From a virus, in IMG/VR virus record IMGVR_UViG_3300025141_000016, positions 62,001 through 126,000 of that record: 64,000 nucleotides of DNA; one strand, given 5' to 3'. Each line of letters starts with the position of its first letter. The first letter of the stretch is position 1. A program made the position numbers and the translations under genes. Below the pieces are notes generated by a model that was given only the letters and a program-made list of their open reading frames with translations, was not told where the DNA came from and made no database searches. Positions 5,001-62,474 of the stretch are shown piece by piece.

Positions 5001-7723
5001 ACTTTGGTGTCTACTTGGACTTCAACGGTCTTGGCGGGGTGGGCACCGAACTGGCGGCGGCCAACATCTACGTCAACGACAACGAGATCAGTGAACTGGA
5101 ACTCTCGGTTGGCCAACCCTACACCAATGGGATCTACGTCAGGGGAACGGGAGCCCGAAACGCATGGTGGCCCTCCGGCCTTATCAACTTCCAGATCAGC
5201 CGGAACACCATGAGAAACTGGAATCTGGGCACTCTCTCCCAAGGGATTCGGTGGATCACTGGCGGGATGCCCGTGAACATCCTCAATGTCGATAACAACG
5301 TCATCGTGGGCGAAGGGACGGACTCCTATCCCGCTATCGTGTACTTCTCCGCTGATGCTACATCGGAAGCCTCCGTAGGGGCATGGACGCAAGTCTCGAT
5401 CTCTGGGAACGAGATCATCTCGTCCAAATCGGGGAGTGTGCGGGATGTGGTGGTCATGGACTTCGCTGACTTCCAGTTGGAGAAGTTGAAGGTTGTTTCC
5501 AACACGTTGCAGGCTACCGGGGTCGTGAACCGAGATGGGTACGGCCTTATCGTCAGGTCCGAGTACAAGAACAGCAGCGACAACTCGGTAAGCGACGTTA
5601 TCGTGGACGGGAACGCCATGGTAGGTGGGGTGCTCTTTCACAACTCCGGTGCTTCGCTCTCGGACTGCTCCGTCAGCAACAACCATATCACTTGCGTATC
5701 TGCGGATACGGGCCACAACCCTGTCCGGTTCGACATGGATGGCTTCGGGGTTCAGCCTGTCCTGTTTGGCATCCAAGTCCAGGGGAACACCCTCATCGGG
5801 GGAGCCACTGGTTGCCTGATCAAACCTGTAAGTAGCGTCCAGTATGTGAAGGATGTTGCCATCAAGGACAACATCATTTCCGGGGGCTTCTACTCGGCTT
5901 TCTACCTTGACGCGAGCAACGCCAGCGCCGTGGGTGAGATCCGTAGCTTGTCCGTCTCGGGGAACCAGATTTACACCACTCCGCGTGGGATCATGGCCCA
6001 TGTGTATGAAGCCACCATCGCTGGTTTGACCATCAGGGACAACGAACTCCGCGAAATGGGGGAACAAGGTATCGTCTGCCTCTTGGGTGGCGACAGCGCA
6101 ACTGACTCGGCAGCCAATGTCCTCATCGACGGGAACACCATCTTCAACGTGACGGCAACTTCGGGTGAGCCGGTGATTGAACTTGGGATGCACGTCCCCG
6201 CACCGGGGAACCCTGGTGACGCGAAGAACTTTTCGGTGAGCCGCAACACCATCGCCCAGGTGGGGCCAAGAGACAATGGGCTCACCTACATCTTCGTGGA
6301 CGCGGCTGGCTGGGACAACTCCCACAATGTTCGCATCTGCGACAACAACCTCATGGGCGACCCCAATGAGAAGGACGGGATGAATACGGGCATCTATGTG
6401 GCCGTCGCCCCGGTCAACTTCAATACCCATGTGGATAGGAACCAGATCCAGGCGGCCAGTCGGAAAGGAATCTACATGGCGAGTGGGGGAGACAGCCGCG
6501 TCTGGAGTGTGTCGAACAACAACGTCACGAACATCTCAGATTCCGTGCAGCACGGTGTCCACATCGAGGTTTCGGGCGACCATATTGAGCAGTGGCGCGT
6601 CAACGACAACGTAGTACGCCATGTTCCCGCGTCTGCCGGGTTGTCTTCCACCGAGGGCATCTTCGTGAAGCAGACGGGACAGGCGGGTCAGTGGGTGGAG
6701 GGGTCGATCTCTCGCAACAACATCGACAACTACGGTTACGGTATCCGTGCCGATGCTGACAACCCTACTGCATTTATGAAGCAGATGGCCGTTGACGACA
6801 ACCTCATCGGCGGCCATCGAACGGTGTCTGATCAAAACGTCATCGAAGCCATGATGTATGGCATCCATATCGTCGCCACAGAGTTCCTTTTCCTCATCCC
6901 AACCCTCCCCATCAGTGGCGAGTCCATCTTGGGGTTGAGTGTGTGCCGCAACCAGATCAACTCTCCGGCTATCGGGACAAACAACGACCCTGGTTCGGGG
7001 GTTCTGGTGGTGGGTGGTTTTCTGGCCAACAGTGAAGTCTGTCGGATGGTCAACATTTCTGACAACAAGGTCTACCAGACCGACACCTCGTATGACACGA
7101 AGAGTTCGGGAATCATCACCTATTTCCTGGCAGACAACAATGTTTCCGAAATCTCTGTGGACAGGAACCAGATTCGGAACATCTCCGAGTATGGGGTCTT
7201 CACCATCGGTAGGTGTGCCTGGGATAACGCATCAGCGTGCTCGTTGTGGTCGGTGTCTGGCAACCAAGTTCAGGCGAGTGCTTCCTTTATGACTGACATC
7301 GCGGACAACGATGAGCCTTTCTGCAACATTGGGATTGCTTTCCCTGGAGCGCAAGGCAACGAATCCACGGTGAAGGATGTGCGTGTCGTGGGCAACCAGA
7401 GTGTTGTGTATCTGGCGGGTGAACACTGCAACTACTACTTCGGGCTCGCCAAGGATGATTTACCGGGACCGTCAACAGGTTGGTGGGTTTGCGACAACGA
7501 CGCACGAGGGGGCACACTCACCTATAGCGTCGTGACAGACGGCAAGTGTGGACAGAACGCCGCTTGGCCGTTGGTGAACACTTGGGCGGGCGTAGGTGAG
7601 CCCACTCACAAGACCGTCCATGACAATCGCTGTGAGGACACGGGGAATGACGATAACTGGCTGGCTGGTGTCTCGTGGCAAGGCGCAACCGCCGACAACA
7701 CCCACCATAACAGCAACTACTGA
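2057..7723 (+). CDS. Giant right-handed parallel beta-helix protein (tail fibre/spike candidate)
   Basis: The product has 1888 residues. From about residue 170 almost to the C-terminus it is built of repeating beta-helix rungs with recurrent short units such as ITGNT, VSNN, ISGN and VRDN, the pattern of pectate-lyase/NosD-like right-handed parallel beta-helices. The first roughly 170 residues lack the repeats and could be the particle-attachment domain. No catalytic triad could be identified by eye, so glycan depolymerase activity is possible but not shown. It begins 3 nt after the upstream structural gene, indicating co-transcription. A tail spike or fibre that contacts host surface glycans is the most likely role by family precedent. 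Confidence 0.9.
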   Translation: MPRKVDPGQIAVGKGLAPEGTVEDNSFRYPERDADPLRVHIHDPSRAHMASSIGIVDEADCYISDEVEGALQELCGGYSAGRLNGLIRGGLFNEVKAGLPTGGTTLTLETTTEIAIGGHVFDASGLTITLPTGANDYFVYCDTYSGSPDYRTLQYTTGAPPQVESDSPEIEHVMLAKITVAGGVITAYQDARFFVRNLDRKVLYSSRQGENVDAWSEGCFATLNAAMFWMEFYGDTGTSEEEKGTILVRGLHELEATLVVPSEHVEFVGDGEGIIRAKAGFVGSQLIEIPNAVDGGHVSFRNITFQTDVAGIQGIYADGVGDLGKVRIDSCLFDIYNAKTFTKAIVLRSTGPHGVTQFWMNNTIVNATITGLELRQPRRAEVLGCTFVGPGSAAAGIQGIWAWEGQNLVISGCTMEDWSDGIFLAQSLTDVRIETTRIEKCANGIKYDAGGIGQDIQISDCVIELDDNDAVAGIWMDDVKRVGISNTHIRAIRNNWGGGFNPYGIVVGALTGVPASAATQLDLQITGCYIEGFLNEADPDLGKGIYVAGTPTAWAVNTTITGNVLNGNTLTVYYAENTTITGNTFDGPSVGPSAAPLINLVGASHSTITGNTVRGRGKSTTGIYVGEFLADNTPSTNVTISGNTIQATTLAGIELENTVSDFTVSDNTIDLFLAGDPAAYGGALIVLSNSTTVNPPSRGTITGNTGYRAQNGILARGEETNEGSHLLIAHNVMANIANDAALVADSFSGSIGIGIEWYKKCTIQGNKLDGIGASPGLALTDVHPRPILAVDCEVLTIESNMSTGCITQGVGEAESISVYTVNDTVGIERSNFNIVGNVLQTGALTDSFGINFLVKRLVGDSPMRVRNVLIADNTITRVGGNLVEGIRVGLFSCADMFDLTVRDNIVNHYLLSGIDIQIIADAVVGFVMLDSFRVVGNTLHGADPGDSYTQRCLWVKADSSATAACAVVDGSVSSNKIIGGFDFGVYLDFNGLGGVGTELAAANIYVNDNEISELELSVGQPYTNGIYVRGTGARNAWWPSGLINFQISRNTMRNWNLGTLSQGIRWITGGMPVNILNVDNNVIVGEGTDSYPAIVYFSADATSEASVGAWTQVSISGNEIISSKSGSVRDVVVMDFADFQLEKLKVVSNTLQATGVVNRDGYGLIVRSEYKNSSDNSVSDVIVDGNAMVGGVLFHNSGASLSDCSVSNNHITCVSADTGHNPVRFDMDGFGVQPVLFGIQVQGNTLIGGATGCLIKPVSSVQYVKDVAIKDNIISGGFYSAFYLDASNASAVGEIRSLSVSGNQIYTTPRGIMAHVYEATIAGLTIRDNELREMGEQGIVCLLGGDSATDSAANVLIDGNTIFNVTATSGEPVIELGMHVPAPGNPGDAKNFSVSRNTIAQVGPRDNGLTYIFVDAAGWDNSHNVRICDNNLMGDPNEKDGMNTGIYVAVAPVNFNTHVDRNQIQAASRKGIYMASGGDSRVWSVSNNNVTNISDSVQHGVHIEVSGDHIEQWRVNDNVVRHVPASAGLSSTEGIFVKQTGQAGQWVEGSISRNNIDNYGYGIRADADNPTAFMKQMAVDDNLIGGHRTVSDQNVIEAMMYGIHIVATEFLFLIPTLPISGESILGLSVCRNQINSPAIGTNNDPGSGVLVVGGFLANSEVCRMVNISDNKVYQTDTSYDTKSSGIITYFLADNNVSEISVDRNQIRNISEYGVFTIGRCAWDNASACSLWSVSGNQVQASASFMTDIADNDEPFCNIGIAFPGAQGNESTVKDVRVVGNQSVVYLAGEHCNYYFGLAKDDLPGPSTGWWVCDNDARGGTLTYSVVTDGKCGQNAAWPLVNTWAGVGEPTHKTVHDNRCEDTGNDDNWLAGVSWQGATADNTHHNSNY

Positions 7724-32942: not shown

Positions 32943-32976
32943 CCTATACGGAGATAGGGGGGCGAGTTGAACCCCC
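32943..32976 (-). promoter_or_regulatory. Promoter-like element, canonical copy on minus strand
   Basis: Read leftward: GGGGGTTCAACTC, 7 nt, TATCTCCGTATAGG, identical in layout to the rightward copies. It is oriented towards the small membrane-protein gene, whose start is about 20 nt away, showing that orientation follows the gene. Confidence 0.7.
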
Positions 32977-33960: not shown

Positions 33961-33995
33961 GGGGGGGGTTCAACTCGCCCCCCTATCTCCGTATG
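33961..33995 (+). promoter_or_regulatory. Promoter-like element, canonical copy
   Basis: G-run, TTCAACTC (33969-33976), 7 nt GCCCCCC, then TATCTCCGTAT (33984-33994). Lies about 50 nt upstream of the kinase gene start. Confidence 0.7.
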
Positions 33996-47481: not shown

Positions 47482-49344
47482 ATGAGCAGTTGCCCCATTC
47501 GGTCACAGGCATACGGCGGCCTCCCTTCCGTCGGGGGCTTCGGATCCATCATGGAGTTCGGAGTCGGGCTTGGGACCATCTTTGAGGCCGCTCATTGTCT
47601 ACTTGGCTCCCTCGGCAAGAATCTGGGGAGAGAGGATGACTGGGTGGCGATGCTCGGTGTCGAGAAAGGCCATCTGAACGAGGAAGCTGGGATCATCAAG
47701 GACGCCCTCCGTGAGTATGCTCGACCTGTCTACCGCGAGCAGATGCTCGACTTCTCCCAGTACAAGCCCGAGTGGCAGGAGAGGATGCGGGAGTCTGCGG
47801 AGAGGCAGGTCGAGGACATTCAACAGGCTGGACCCAAGTTGGCCTCTCTCGCCAAGGGTAGGGCATCGGCTTTTGTGGAAAATCTGGAAACGGAGGATGC
47901 CCCTGTCGAGTGGGTGAACACCGTTGAGGCCACCTACCTCATGGTGATCGCGTTGGCCGAGGCTGCGGTGAAGGCCGTGAATGACTGGCCCGACTCTATG
48001 GGGAACCCCTTTGCGGACCCCAAGGTGACCCGAGCCGCTGGGCTCATGGAAAAGCATCTCGCGGCTCTGTTCCGATGGGGATCCTCCCAGCGGGTTGCGC
48101 GTCGATACGCTTCCCAGAAGTTCCAGTGGACGCGCTCTCCCCTCTCCTACAACGTGAGCGGGACTGCGAAGCGGCTCGGACTCCTCGACTCGGAAGCAGG
48201 TGACCCCGATGAGTGGGAGACTTACTTCGCGGAAACCCAAAAGGAACTCCGCAAGAAGAACCGCCAGCGGTACAAAAAGCCTCGGTACGAAACAATCCCT
48301 GGTGCGGAACCTGGGACGGTTGCCTTCCTCGACTACCACGAGTTCCCAAACTACTACGGGGACGGGAAACTCTACCTTTACCTCGACTATGTATCGACTC
48401 GGCATGACCGGCTCGGTCAGGGGCACGCTCGGAAGCTGTTTGAGGAGATGCTGCGGAAGCACGGCAAGGACTCCCACTACGATTTCGGACGCATCGCGCA
48501 CAAGGCGGTCTACAAGATTTTCCGCGACTGGCAGTCGCGGGGGATCAACGTCCGGGGAAAGAACTGGGGCGGCTACACCGACGAGGAAGTCGGCCTCCGA
48601 AGCGCCTCTGCCGTCCGGGTCGTTGCTCGCTTTGAAAATCTCCGAAAAACAGACCGGCACACCGTCTACCACGGGACAGGCATCGGCCAACTCCCCCAGT
48701 TGATCAATGGGTTTGATGCAACCAAGATGAAAGGCCGAAGCTACAACACGCGCCCCCACAAAGGGATGTTTGTCTCACCCGACCTTGCCACTGCAAAGAA
48801 GTTCGGTCAGGTGATCCTTGAACTGGAAATCCCCGCCCGTTTCCTGCATGGGCGCGATTGGGCCGGAAAACCCTTACACCCCAAACTACAAGAGGAAGCG
48901 GAAGGGATGTTCCCCGAGTCGTTCCGCCCCGACCTCTCTTACATGCTGGAAGCCGGGGAACCACAGGCATTGGTTCTTGGCCTCGTTTCGCCCAGGCAGA
49001 TCCGCCGCGTGCTTTATGACGGGAAATGGTACTCCCGTAAAGACTTCCTCGCCCTCGACTGGGAAGACCTCAAAACCCCTCGCCGTCGCCCTATGCGCGA
49101 TCTCGGAGTGGATGTTTCTGATCCCAGCCTTTCGTGGGAGGACTTCATAGAAGCCAGCGCAACTCTCTTTGAGTCACCCGTCGCCCGCATCCAAAAAGTG
49201 CTTGGTCGTTGGGTGGAGCAAGGGAAGAACGCCCGCTGGGTGGCGAAGCAGCTTGAAGTGGTGTGGGAACCTCTCACCGCTCGTCGCTATGCCGAACGAT
49301 TCTTCGGGACGCAAGACAGGGAGGCACAGAGGGGGATGCCGTGA
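47482..49344 (+). CDS. Three-module protein: helical domain - GNAT - ADP-ribosyltransferase-like, joined by RVA tags
   Basis: 620 residues (GGGAGG upstream). Residues 1-200 helical; then QRVARRYAS (204-210); a GNAT-like module (to about 370; LYLYLDYV, RHDRLGQGHARKL) paralogous to the protein at 45089; then AVRVVARF (about 378); then an ADP-ribosyltransferase-like module starting TVYHGTG (H397) with GMFVSPDLATAKKFG and a late GEPQAL Glu, similar to the protein at 44220. The C-terminus has ARRYAERF. Each tag sits at a module boundary. Looks like a polyprotein of host-takeover enzymes; processing is hypothetical. Confidence 0.82.
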   Translation: MSSCPIRSQAYGGLPSVGGFGSIMEFGVGLGTIFEAAHCLLGSLGKNLGREDDWVAMLGVEKGHLNEEAGIIKDALREYARPVYREQMLDFSQYKPEWQERMRESAERQVEDIQQAGPKLASLAKGRASAFVENLETEDAPVEWVNTVEATYLMVIALAEAAVKAVNDWPDSMGNPFADPKVTRAAGLMEKHLAALFRWGSSQRVARRYASQKFQWTRSPLSYNVSGTAKRLGLLDSEAGDPDEWETYFAETQKELRKKNRQRYKKPRYETIPGAEPGTVAFLDYHEFPNYYGDGKLYLYLDYVSTRHDRLGQGHARKLFEEMLRKHGKDSHYDFGRIAHKAVYKIFRDWQSRGINVRGKNWGGYTDEEVGLRSASAVRVVARFENLRKTDRHTVYHGTGIGQLPQLINGFDATKMKGRSYNTRPHKGMFVSPDLATAKKFGQVILELEIPARFLHGRDWAGKPLHPKLQEEAEGMFPESFRPDLSYMLEAGEPQALVLGLVSPRQIRRVLYDGKWYSRKDFLALDWEDLKTPRRRPMRDLGVDVSDPSLSWEDFIEASATLFESPVARIQKVLGRWVEQGKNARWVAKQLEVVWEPLTARRYAERFFGTQDREAQRGMP

Positions 49345-54940: not shown

Positions 54941-55309
54941 ATGACCCGAGAAACCACCATCATCGAGCGCGGGACCGCTGCTCGTCGTCTCGTGGAGTCT
55001 GTCGATGAGCGTCGGCGTGAACGCGCCAACCGCATCGACGTGATCAACGCCACCGAGCGAGGGGACCGCCTCATCGCTACCGTCCGGTCGGAAGACAAGG
55101 CGAAGACCTACAACACCGTGATCTCCCTCGACGTGAGGGGACGGCGAGGTTGGGTGCGCTGTGACTGTGATGACAACCACCGACGGAACTTGCCCTGCAA
55201 GCACTCTGTTGCTGTTGCCAACCGCTACCGCGCTACGAAGCGCGAGGAACTTCTACGGCTCCGGGGGGATGCCGCCACCCAGGACACTCCAACCCCGGAA
55301 AAACCATGA
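54941..55309 (+). CDS. SWIM zinc-finger protein
   Basis: 122 residues. WVRCDCDDNH ... LPCKHSVAVA gives the CxC...CxH SWIM signature (C74, C76, C86, H88), a small zinc module that binds DNA or protein. The N-terminus is basic and helical. Coupled to the next gene by ATGA. Part of a promoter-led accessory operon. Confidence 0.85.
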   Translation: MTRETTIIERGTAARRLVESVDERRRERANRIDVINATERGDRLIATVRSEDKAKTYNTVISLDVRGRRGWVRCDCDDNHRRNLPCKHSVAVANRYRATKREELLRLRGDAATQDTPTPEKP

Positions 55310-55942: not shown

Positions 55943-56695
55943 GGGCCAAGAGTTCTTTTACATCTCAAACGAATCTCAACACGCCTTTCGGGGCGTGGCA
56001 GAGTGAACCCTTGCTGACGGGTTCCCAAACCGATGTACCCTTGCCGGGTCGTTGGCTCCCTCGGGAGATAGGCAGAACCCCGATTGGGAAGGTGGCCTTC
56101 ACAGGTCATGCCGCCCAATCTGTGAGGGGGGACGAGTTATGCGGTGTGGAAACCGCGAGAACCGTCCAGTGTCCCGGCGCATGAGCCGACGTTCCACCGT
56201 CGGAGTGCTGCAAAGGGAAGTCCCGTACTTGTCGGTTCAACGGGACAACGGTTGCAGGGCACAAACCATGACGAAAGTCTTGGGAAGGGGGTCGTTCCCC
56301 AGAATCGGACTGCTGAATGCAGAAGCCTCTCTGGTCATCGGGGCAACTTGGTGGCCGTCCCGAAAGGGGGCAACTGGCGATCTTCCCAAGGGATCAAAGG
56401 TTGTCGTGTGAAGGGTTGGGGAAGGTACACTCCACAACCCGGAGCGCAGAATGTAGGCAGCAGTATCGCGTGCTGTTCCGTCGTAGGAGACTGCGAAGAA
56501 CAGGGAGGAACGCTGTGAACCGTTTTACTTACGGGTGTTCACACTCCTAACCCGAGAGGGGACAGGCTCAAAAGGCTTGGAGGTCACGGCATGGGAGCAG
56601 GCCGATGTGCTGCTTGTTTGTTCCCTTATGAGGGGGTCATCCGAAAGGGTGGCCCCCTCCCCCTTTCACAGTCGCCCGAGAGGGCGACTTTTTTT
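55943..56695 (+). ncRNA. Large structured non-coding RNA (GOLLD/ROOL-type candidate)
   Basis: About 750 nt without a plausible gene: all reading frames are short, overlapping and have no Shine-Dalgarno or family resemblance. Many stems can be read directly, for example ACGCC/GGCGT (55981/55992), GAACCC/GGGTTC (56005/56019), GATTGGG/CCCAATC (56082/56114), GGACG/CGTCC (56130/56163) enclosing GCGGT/ACCGC, CCGACG/CGTCGG (56186/56198), GGGTTG/CAACCC (56413/56435), CAGCA/TGCTG (56458/56471), GTGAAC/GTTCAC (56515/56537), GAGGGGG/CCCCCTC (56630/56653). Three stems are closed by GAAA tetraloops (56273, 56362, 56643). It has a promoter-like element in front and a perfect terminator behind. Length, density and phage context fit the ornate GOLLD/ROOL RNAs; family membership is not verified. 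Confidence 0.75.
56670..56695 (+). terminator. Intrinsic terminator of the structured RNA
   Basis: AGTCGCCC-GAGA-GGGCGACT followed by six T: perfect 8-bp stem, GNRA loop, T-run. Marks the RNA 3' end. Confidence 0.9.
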
Positions 56696-56701
56696 CGTCC
56701 A

Positions 56702-56737
56702 GGGGGGGTTCAACTCGCCCCGGTATCTCCGTATAAG
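56702..56737 (+). promoter_or_regulatory. Promoter-like element, canonical copy
   Basis: GGGGGGG, TTCAACTC (56709-56716), 7 nt GCCCCGG, TATCTCCGTATAAG (56724-56737); only about 20 nt from the phosphatase start. Confidence 0.75.
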
Positions 56738-61896: not shown

Positions 61897-62474
61897 TGCC
61901 AGCGCCAAGGCTGTTCCACACTACATCATGGAGGGAAGCTGAAAAGGCGTTGAAGACAGGCAAGATCACCAGCATCTCTCCCTTCATCTCCTTGTCCGAG
62001 AAGCCCCTGTTCGGGGGAGACATTCGCCACGGCGACGTGGCTCTGGTCCTCGATGCGGGTGGGATCAAAGGTCAACTGGTCAAGGTGGAGTACACCGAGC
62101 GTTGGGCCGAAGCCAACCCCGAGCAGACTTCCTACATCGCAGGCGAGGGGTGGCGAGAGCAGTTCACTTACCCAGAGGACTGCGTTGACGAGGAAGGCTG
62201 GGAAGACGACGAGTGCATGGAACGGGCGTACCACGAGGCCGAGGTTGACTCTTTCCTTTGGAAATCCGACGAAGCTGAATGGCTCACGAAGCGGGAGGGC
62301 GCTCCTCTCTCTGTAGGCGGGGCAATCACGGGGCTTCTCGTCCCCGATGAGCGCAGCAAGGGACACGCGGAATCACTCATGGGGGGTCTTGGGCTGGACT
62401 TGCCGGTATTCATAGGGAGAGGAGCGTCGGCTGTGCGTGTTGCAAAGCGGTTTCTTCTGGGAGATGCCGCATGA
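61896..62474 (+). CDS. ADP-ribosyltransferase-like protein with C-terminal RVAKRF tag
   Basis: 192 residues from ATG 61896 (one-base overlap with TAA). RLFHTTSWREAEKALKTGKI, FISLSEKPL and later EAEWLTKREGAPL resemble a phage family with an H-T-T ... S ... E pattern related to the KptA/DarT ADP-ribosyltransferase fold. The C-terminus ends SAVRVAKRFLLGDAA, the tag in a C-terminal position. Coupled to the next gene by ATGA. Confidence 0.76.
   Translation: MPAPRLFHTTSWREAEKALKTGKITSISPFISLSEKPLFGGDIRHGDVALVLDAGGIKGQLVKVEYTERWAEANPEQTSYIAGEGWREQFTYPEDCVDEEGWEDDECMERAYHEAEVDSFLWKSDEAEWLTKREGAPLSVGGAITGLLVPDERSKGHAESLMGGLGLDLPVFIGRGASAVRVAKRFLLGDAA

Follow-up and report, generated by a model that had tools for sequence, protein, structure and literature searches.

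To our knowledge, only a handful of very large structured RNAs have been described in bacteria and phages, and the role of two of them, GOLLD and ROOL, is unsolved. GOLLD and ROOL are phage RNAs that are often found near tRNA islands and form cages without protein, and in GOLLD the 3' region is universally conserved and the 5' region is divergent (PMC12286853). The OLE and ARRPOF RNAs form homodimers, and raiA was found to be a monomer in the same study as the GOLLD and ROOL cages (PMC12286853). Long non-coding RNAs have also been reported in individual phages. The most abundant transcript of ICP1, about 800 nt long, is non-coding and was likened to GOLLD in length only (PMC7567579), and the lncRNAs of phage K have been placed near tRNA genes (PMC9241854).

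The DNA examined here (the window) is a stretch of 64,000 nucleotides that corresponds to positions 62001–126000 of a 297,104-base virus record (IMG/VR record IMGVR_UViG_3300025141_000016; G000 below). It encodes a DNA polymerase, a DnaB-type helicase, an NAD-dependent DNA ligase and a baseplate protein, and the nearest INPHARED match to the DNA polymerase of this record was in LR745208, a 485-kb uncultured phage. A short motif, SA(A/V)RVA.R(Y/F) or similar, recurs in several proteins without family matches (at 62427 and 63286 on the + strand, and in the ORF at 47482–49344), and a guess would be that it marks virion proteins for processing or sorting. No credible gene was found between 55883, where an ORF ends, and 56758, where a metallophosphatase gene starts with ATG. 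The original prediction had placed a giant structured RNA gene here, and the following elements were identified.

55952–56695, + strand: predicted whole RNA gene, from conserved blocks in four records and the terminator; the 5' boundary is set by the first conserved block
55952–55962, + strand: GTTCTTTTACA, a block ahead of the core that three of the four homologues share; candidate 5' end or promoter element
55980–55997, + strand: CACGCC-UUUCGG-GGCGUG hairpin of the window copy, within the variable 5' segment (fold of the window sequence)
56670–56695, + strand: intrinsic terminator, an 8-bp hairpin (56670–56689) followed by a T run
56709–56734, + strand: copy of a dispersed element ahead of the next gene; it lies between the RNA and the transcription unit of the phosphatase

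GTTCTTTTACA has a single site in the window when up to one mismatch is allowed, and is the sole conserved upstream block, the remainder of the first ~50 nt (55952–56005) differing among the homologues. A scan for sigma-70 promoters found none, and the promoter-like element that had been proposed was thus not recovered; the proposed terminator is present as the hairpin at 56670–56689 plus its T run. Among the four homologues, the hairpin at 56670 was found in the window copy only, and in the copy at locus L027 a T run lies directly 3' of the last conserved hairpin, H32.

The element at 56709 is one of about 20 copies of TTCAACTC-N7-TATCTCCGTAT in G000, mostly 5–72 nt ahead of a possible gene start, where none would be expected by chance. 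Within the window, copies are located at 32946–32971 on the − strand and at 33969, 34520, 49453, 51891, 54864 and 56709 on the + strand. The element appears to be a promoter or leader element specific to the phage.

Related virus records were recruited via the phosphatase and then searched for the RNA itself, and viral contigs were scanned with five DNA patterns for additional homologues. Three further IMG/VR records were found to carry homologues with 80–86% identity over about 650 nt. The copy in record G001 is 82% identical to the window RNA over about 710 nt, that in G003 is 81% identical over about 655 nt, and the third, found by the pattern scan at locus L027 in record G008, shares 84% identity. 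In the viral contigs the five patterns recovered three true relatives only, the other matches being a chance word of 15–17 bases, and a pattern match among genome contigs (L056) was rejected as chance. Searches with blastn against INPHARED phages and PLSDB plasmids gave nothing significant. Covariance models were built from the central domain (R1) and the 3' domain (R2) of the RNA, and found no additional member in 25 records (R1) or in 75 records (R2; the same 25 and 50 more). A weak second R1 match in G000 (G000:C1:210716-210830, locus L206; 19 bits, E = 0.003 under a rough calibration) was taken as probably chance, because R2 had no match nearby. As none of these searches yielded members beyond the four, all of which come from viral metagenome records, the RNA family is rare or limited to a narrow phage group within the data reached.

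The gene neighbourhoods differ at all four copies, and no partner gene is common to the four loci. The RNA is tens of kilobases away from the phosphatase gene in both G001 and G003. At L027 it adjoins a tRNA-Asn gene on the opposite strand, and a tRNA-Ala gene is located about 3 kb from the G003 copy; no tRNA gene was found within 8 kb in G001, and none in the window. Two identical copies of GGTTCGGGTTCGACCCCCGGCA are located upstream of the RNA in L027 (record G008; 6553–6574 and 6640–6661), and resemble the T arm and 3' end of a tRNA. No full tRNA was called there, and these copies are possibly decayed or split tRNA genes. Upstream of the RNA, genes for small SWIM zinc-finger proteins that share 34% identity were found two genes away in the window (54941–55309) and as the next gene in G001 (L022; 4657–5064, − strand). 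No SWIM gene was found near the G003 and L027 copies, and the SWIM protein is a weak lead as a partner of the RNA.

The dense self-complementarity claimed for this stretch was borne out when it was folded, and its stems are backed by covariation in the homologues. The minimum free energy of 55943–56695 is −338.6 kcal/mol, with z = −5.5 on the + strand versus −2.3 on the − strand (20 shuffles each). RNAalifold analysis of the four-sequence alignment predicted 199 base pairs in 32 helices, and 98.4% of alignment cells pair under this consensus structure. Compensatory double changes were found at 40 pairs, compared with 17.8 ± 2.6 in letter shuffles and 1–5 when partners were slid. Because RNAalifold favours covarying pairs, 60 column-shuffled alignments were re-folded, and these gave 6.6 ± 2.3 double-change pairs (maximum 14) against the 40 in the real core. 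The consensus energy of the real core was −268.1 kcal/mol versus −162.8 ± 7.6 kcal/mol in the column shuffles (z about −14), and the opposite strand of the alignment folds much worse (−185). In H13, for example, the window has GUCCCGU/ACGGGAC where G001 and G003 have UCCUCGG/CUGAGGA; in the inner part of H24, UCGUAG/CUGCGA of the window is replaced by UGGUAU/GUGCCG in G003 and by UCCUUG/CAGGGA in L027. Unpaired columns are 73% conserved versus 65% for paired columns. The alignment indicates that the RNA is under selection for an elaborate fold, which is arranged as follows.

56009–56659, + strand: conserved structured core, H2 to H32 (RNAalifold structure and covariation)
56009–56259, + strand: 5' domain, closed by H2 (56009–56014 with 56254–56259) and holding H3–H13; double changes in H5–H10, H12 and H13
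56309–56464, + strand: central domain, closed by H16 (56309–56315 with 56458–56464) and holding H17–H23; double changes in H16, H18, H20, H21 and H23, and covariance model R1
56473–56625, + strand: 3' domain with H24 (56473–56503), the H26 multiloop (56512–56518 with 56584–56590) and H31 (56593–56625); double changes in H24, H27, H30 and H31, and covariance model R2
56630–56659, + strand: H32, a GAAA-capped 13-bp hairpin at the 3' end of the conserved RNA (read from the sequence)

Conservation extends over nearly the complete length of the RNA, with the core (56009–56659) conserved throughout. The H32 stem is GAGGGGG..CCCCCUC in the window and G001 and GGGCGGG..CCCGCCC in G003 and L027. Three GAAA tetraloops, as originally described, are present in hairpins at 56266–56283, 56359–56368 and 56630–56659. 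GNRA caps are found on H18, H19 and H24 in all four homologues and on H14 and H29 in three, and the loop of H5 is UUCG or CUCG on a hand reading of the sequences. In the region of H26 (56512–56518, 56520–56544 and 56584–56590), the conserved GUGAAC can pair with GUUCAC nearby, or its GUGA part can pair with UCAC on the 3' side of H26. All four copies retain both options, which may represent an alternative fold.

Candidate tertiary contacts were sought among the unpaired stretches.

56232–56308, + strand: pseudoknot candidate, L13 (56232–56238) with linker J15/16 (56302–56308), 7 bp in four of four copies
56146–56197, + strand: kissing-loop candidate, L9 GUGGAA (56146–56151) with L12 UUCCAC (56192–56197)

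The L13–J15/16 pairing is the longest conserved complement among the unpaired stretches, a length matched in 3 of 300 sets of shuffled columns; its changes are one-sided only, with no compensatory double changes. L9 and L12 can form 6 bp in two sequences and share an invariant 4-bp part in all four, without covariation. A conserved 10-bp pairing of alignment columns 300–309 with 404–413 competes with H14 and H21, and also has no double changes. GUAC in L23 was the only palindromic loop of note and, as the frequency of such loops is not above chance, they were not used as evidence of symmetric kissing.

When the window RNA was compared with Rfam 15 (4,227 models) at E up to 10, no meaningful match was found. 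A cmscan of all four copies detected the tRNA in L027 and no match of the RNA to an Rfam 15 family, and weak matches to TCV_H5, HCV 5BSL1, BjrC68 and sobemo_FSE were below gathering scores and mostly on single hairpins. The GOLLD model (RF02032) gave no match in G000, G001, G003 and G008 at E up to 10, in a search with no GOLLD-bearing phage as positive control, and the ROOL model (RF03087) gave none in the same four records at E up to 10, with the control genomes silent too. GOLLD was not found above the cut-off in 50 other phage records, and neither ARAGORN nor Rfam identified a tmRNA. In the literature, mostly outside subscription journals, no named family was found to fit.

As Rfam 15, the direct models, INPHARED and PLSDB were all without a match, the RNA is not supported as a GOLLD or ROOL member. 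Of the original prediction of a giant RNA of the GOLLD/ROOL class, the large ornate structured RNA gene stands, and the absence of an Rfam, GOLLD or ROOL match makes it better described as a new class than as a new member. The RNA is similar to GOLLD in being phage-encoded, in its scale of 650–850 nt, in its many stems, conserved loops and loop-linker and loop-loop pairings, and in that some copies are near tRNA genes, as for the L027 copy here (PMC12286853). However, it has no match to the model and is conserved over nearly its full length, not just in the 3' half. With ROOL, which is often near tRNA islands, it shares a phage or prophage setting, a length of about 600 nt and an intertwined ornate fold (PMC12286853), but it again lacks a model match and the helices differ as far as the models tell. 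GOLLD, ROOL and OLE are organised by contacts of the same kinds as the GNRA loops, the candidate loop-linker pseudoknot and the loop-loop complementarity described here. OLE, ARRPOF and raiA are also large ornate bacterial RNAs, but no Rfam match was found here, which is telling only for those that have their own Rfam model. The RNAs of ICP1 and phage K are alike in being long, non-coding and from lytic phages; however, R1 and R2 had no match in the ICP1 genome, and the new RNA has no blastn similarity to INPHARED phages. The RNA very probably represents a well-supported family of large structured phage RNAs that is absent from Rfam 15, and the window copy is the first described example of this family, from a huge-phage lineage. 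Covariation supports the fold, which fits no catalogued family, so a new kind of giant phage RNA is probable.

Several other explanations were weighed. A fast-evolving or mis-called protein gene would account for the open frames, up to 124 codons long, on the + strand of the window, one of which stays open to a similar length in G001. However, gaps of one and two bases occur at several places in the homologue alignment, stops are present in all three + frames over the core in every homologue, the substitutions are spread over the codon positions, as in the 36/34/41 between the window and G001, a Pfam search with three candidate ORFs gave no match, and the covariation far exceeds that in shuffles. 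The indels, the stops and the lack of codon-position bias or a Pfam match rule out a protein-coding reading, which is refuted for practical purposes, and the claim that the stretch is non-coding holds, with neither codon-like substitution nor a protein family match found. It is very unlikely that the RNA is a cis-acting element, either a leader of the phosphatase mRNA or a structure at a replication origin. It does precede the phosphatase gene in the window, but is set apart from it by the terminator and by a separate gene-start element; a phosphatase leader is ruled out by the phosphatase's own upstream element together with the unlinked, distant RNA in G001 and G003. A large, compact RNA found in a different genomic place in each record could also be a self-splicing intron, another ribozyme or the guide RNA of a mobile element, but this is hardly credible, as Rfam gave no match with models that cover group I and II introns, RNase P and HEARO, all four copies are intergenic with no split gene seen, and no adjoining nuclease or reverse transcriptase gene was present in the ORF lists read. 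The size, phage setting, tRNA neighbour at one copy and variable 5' end would be in keeping with a true but divergent GOLLD or ROOL RNA that escaped the models. This is highly improbable, given the lack of a match to Rfam 15 or to the GOLLD and ROOL models (run with no phage positive control) and given that in GOLLD the 3' region is conserved and the 5' region divergent (PMC12286853), whereas nearly the whole length is conserved here.

The explanation preferred as a whole, and considered reasonably likely, is that a stand-alone RNA gene acts in trans as a compact, possibly homo-oligomeric structural RNA. Its own terminator, the upstream element of the next gene and the neighbours that differ in each record were counted in favour of a stand-alone RNA, and, as its position varies between genomes and no neighbour or host gene is constant, it is probably trans-acting. 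In this view, a huge-phage lineage carries a gene for a large non-coding RNA, highly structured and of several domains, which would accumulate during infection and act in trans as a finished RNA. It may form a compact particle, with pseudoknot, kissing-loop and GNRA/A-minor contacts holding it together, and have a structural role, possibly as a homo-oligomer, like GOLLD, ROOL and OLE. The particle could serve as a scaffold, sequester tRNAs, ribosomes or host factors, or protect a cargo. A trans-acting, compact and possibly self-assembling RNA particle made during infection is rated at somewhat under an even chance, and a new class of RNA-only homo-oligomer (cage, ring or bundle), encoded by huge phages and unrelated in sequence to GOLLD, ROOL and OLE, is a tentative proposal on the doubtful side. 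Counted against the particle were the lack of double changes in the pseudoknot and kissing loop, palindromic loops at chance level, a directly adjoining tRNA gene at only one of the four copies and the monomeric state of raiA (PMC12286853). The main rival, nearly as likely as the particle, is a monomeric trans-acting RNA that would bind host or phage proteins or ribosomes, as an RNP scaffold or as a decoy against host defence or degradation. The same structural evidence applies to it, a SWIM zinc-finger gene is upstream near two of the four copies, and raiA and OLE show that large bacterial RNAs may be monomeric or protein-binding (PMC12286853). However, the four loci share no partner gene, and the conserved GNRA and loop-loop features suggest RNA–RNA contacts.

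An independent family with a clean consensus structure provides a second route to the question of what GOLLD and ROOL do. The new RNA is ready for transcription and cryo-EM, which would test RNA-only assembly as a general phage strategy, and its discovery suggests that giant RNAs in huge phages escape present covariance models. If it does form an RNA-only homo-oligomer, RNA nano-assemblies would have arisen independently several times in phages.
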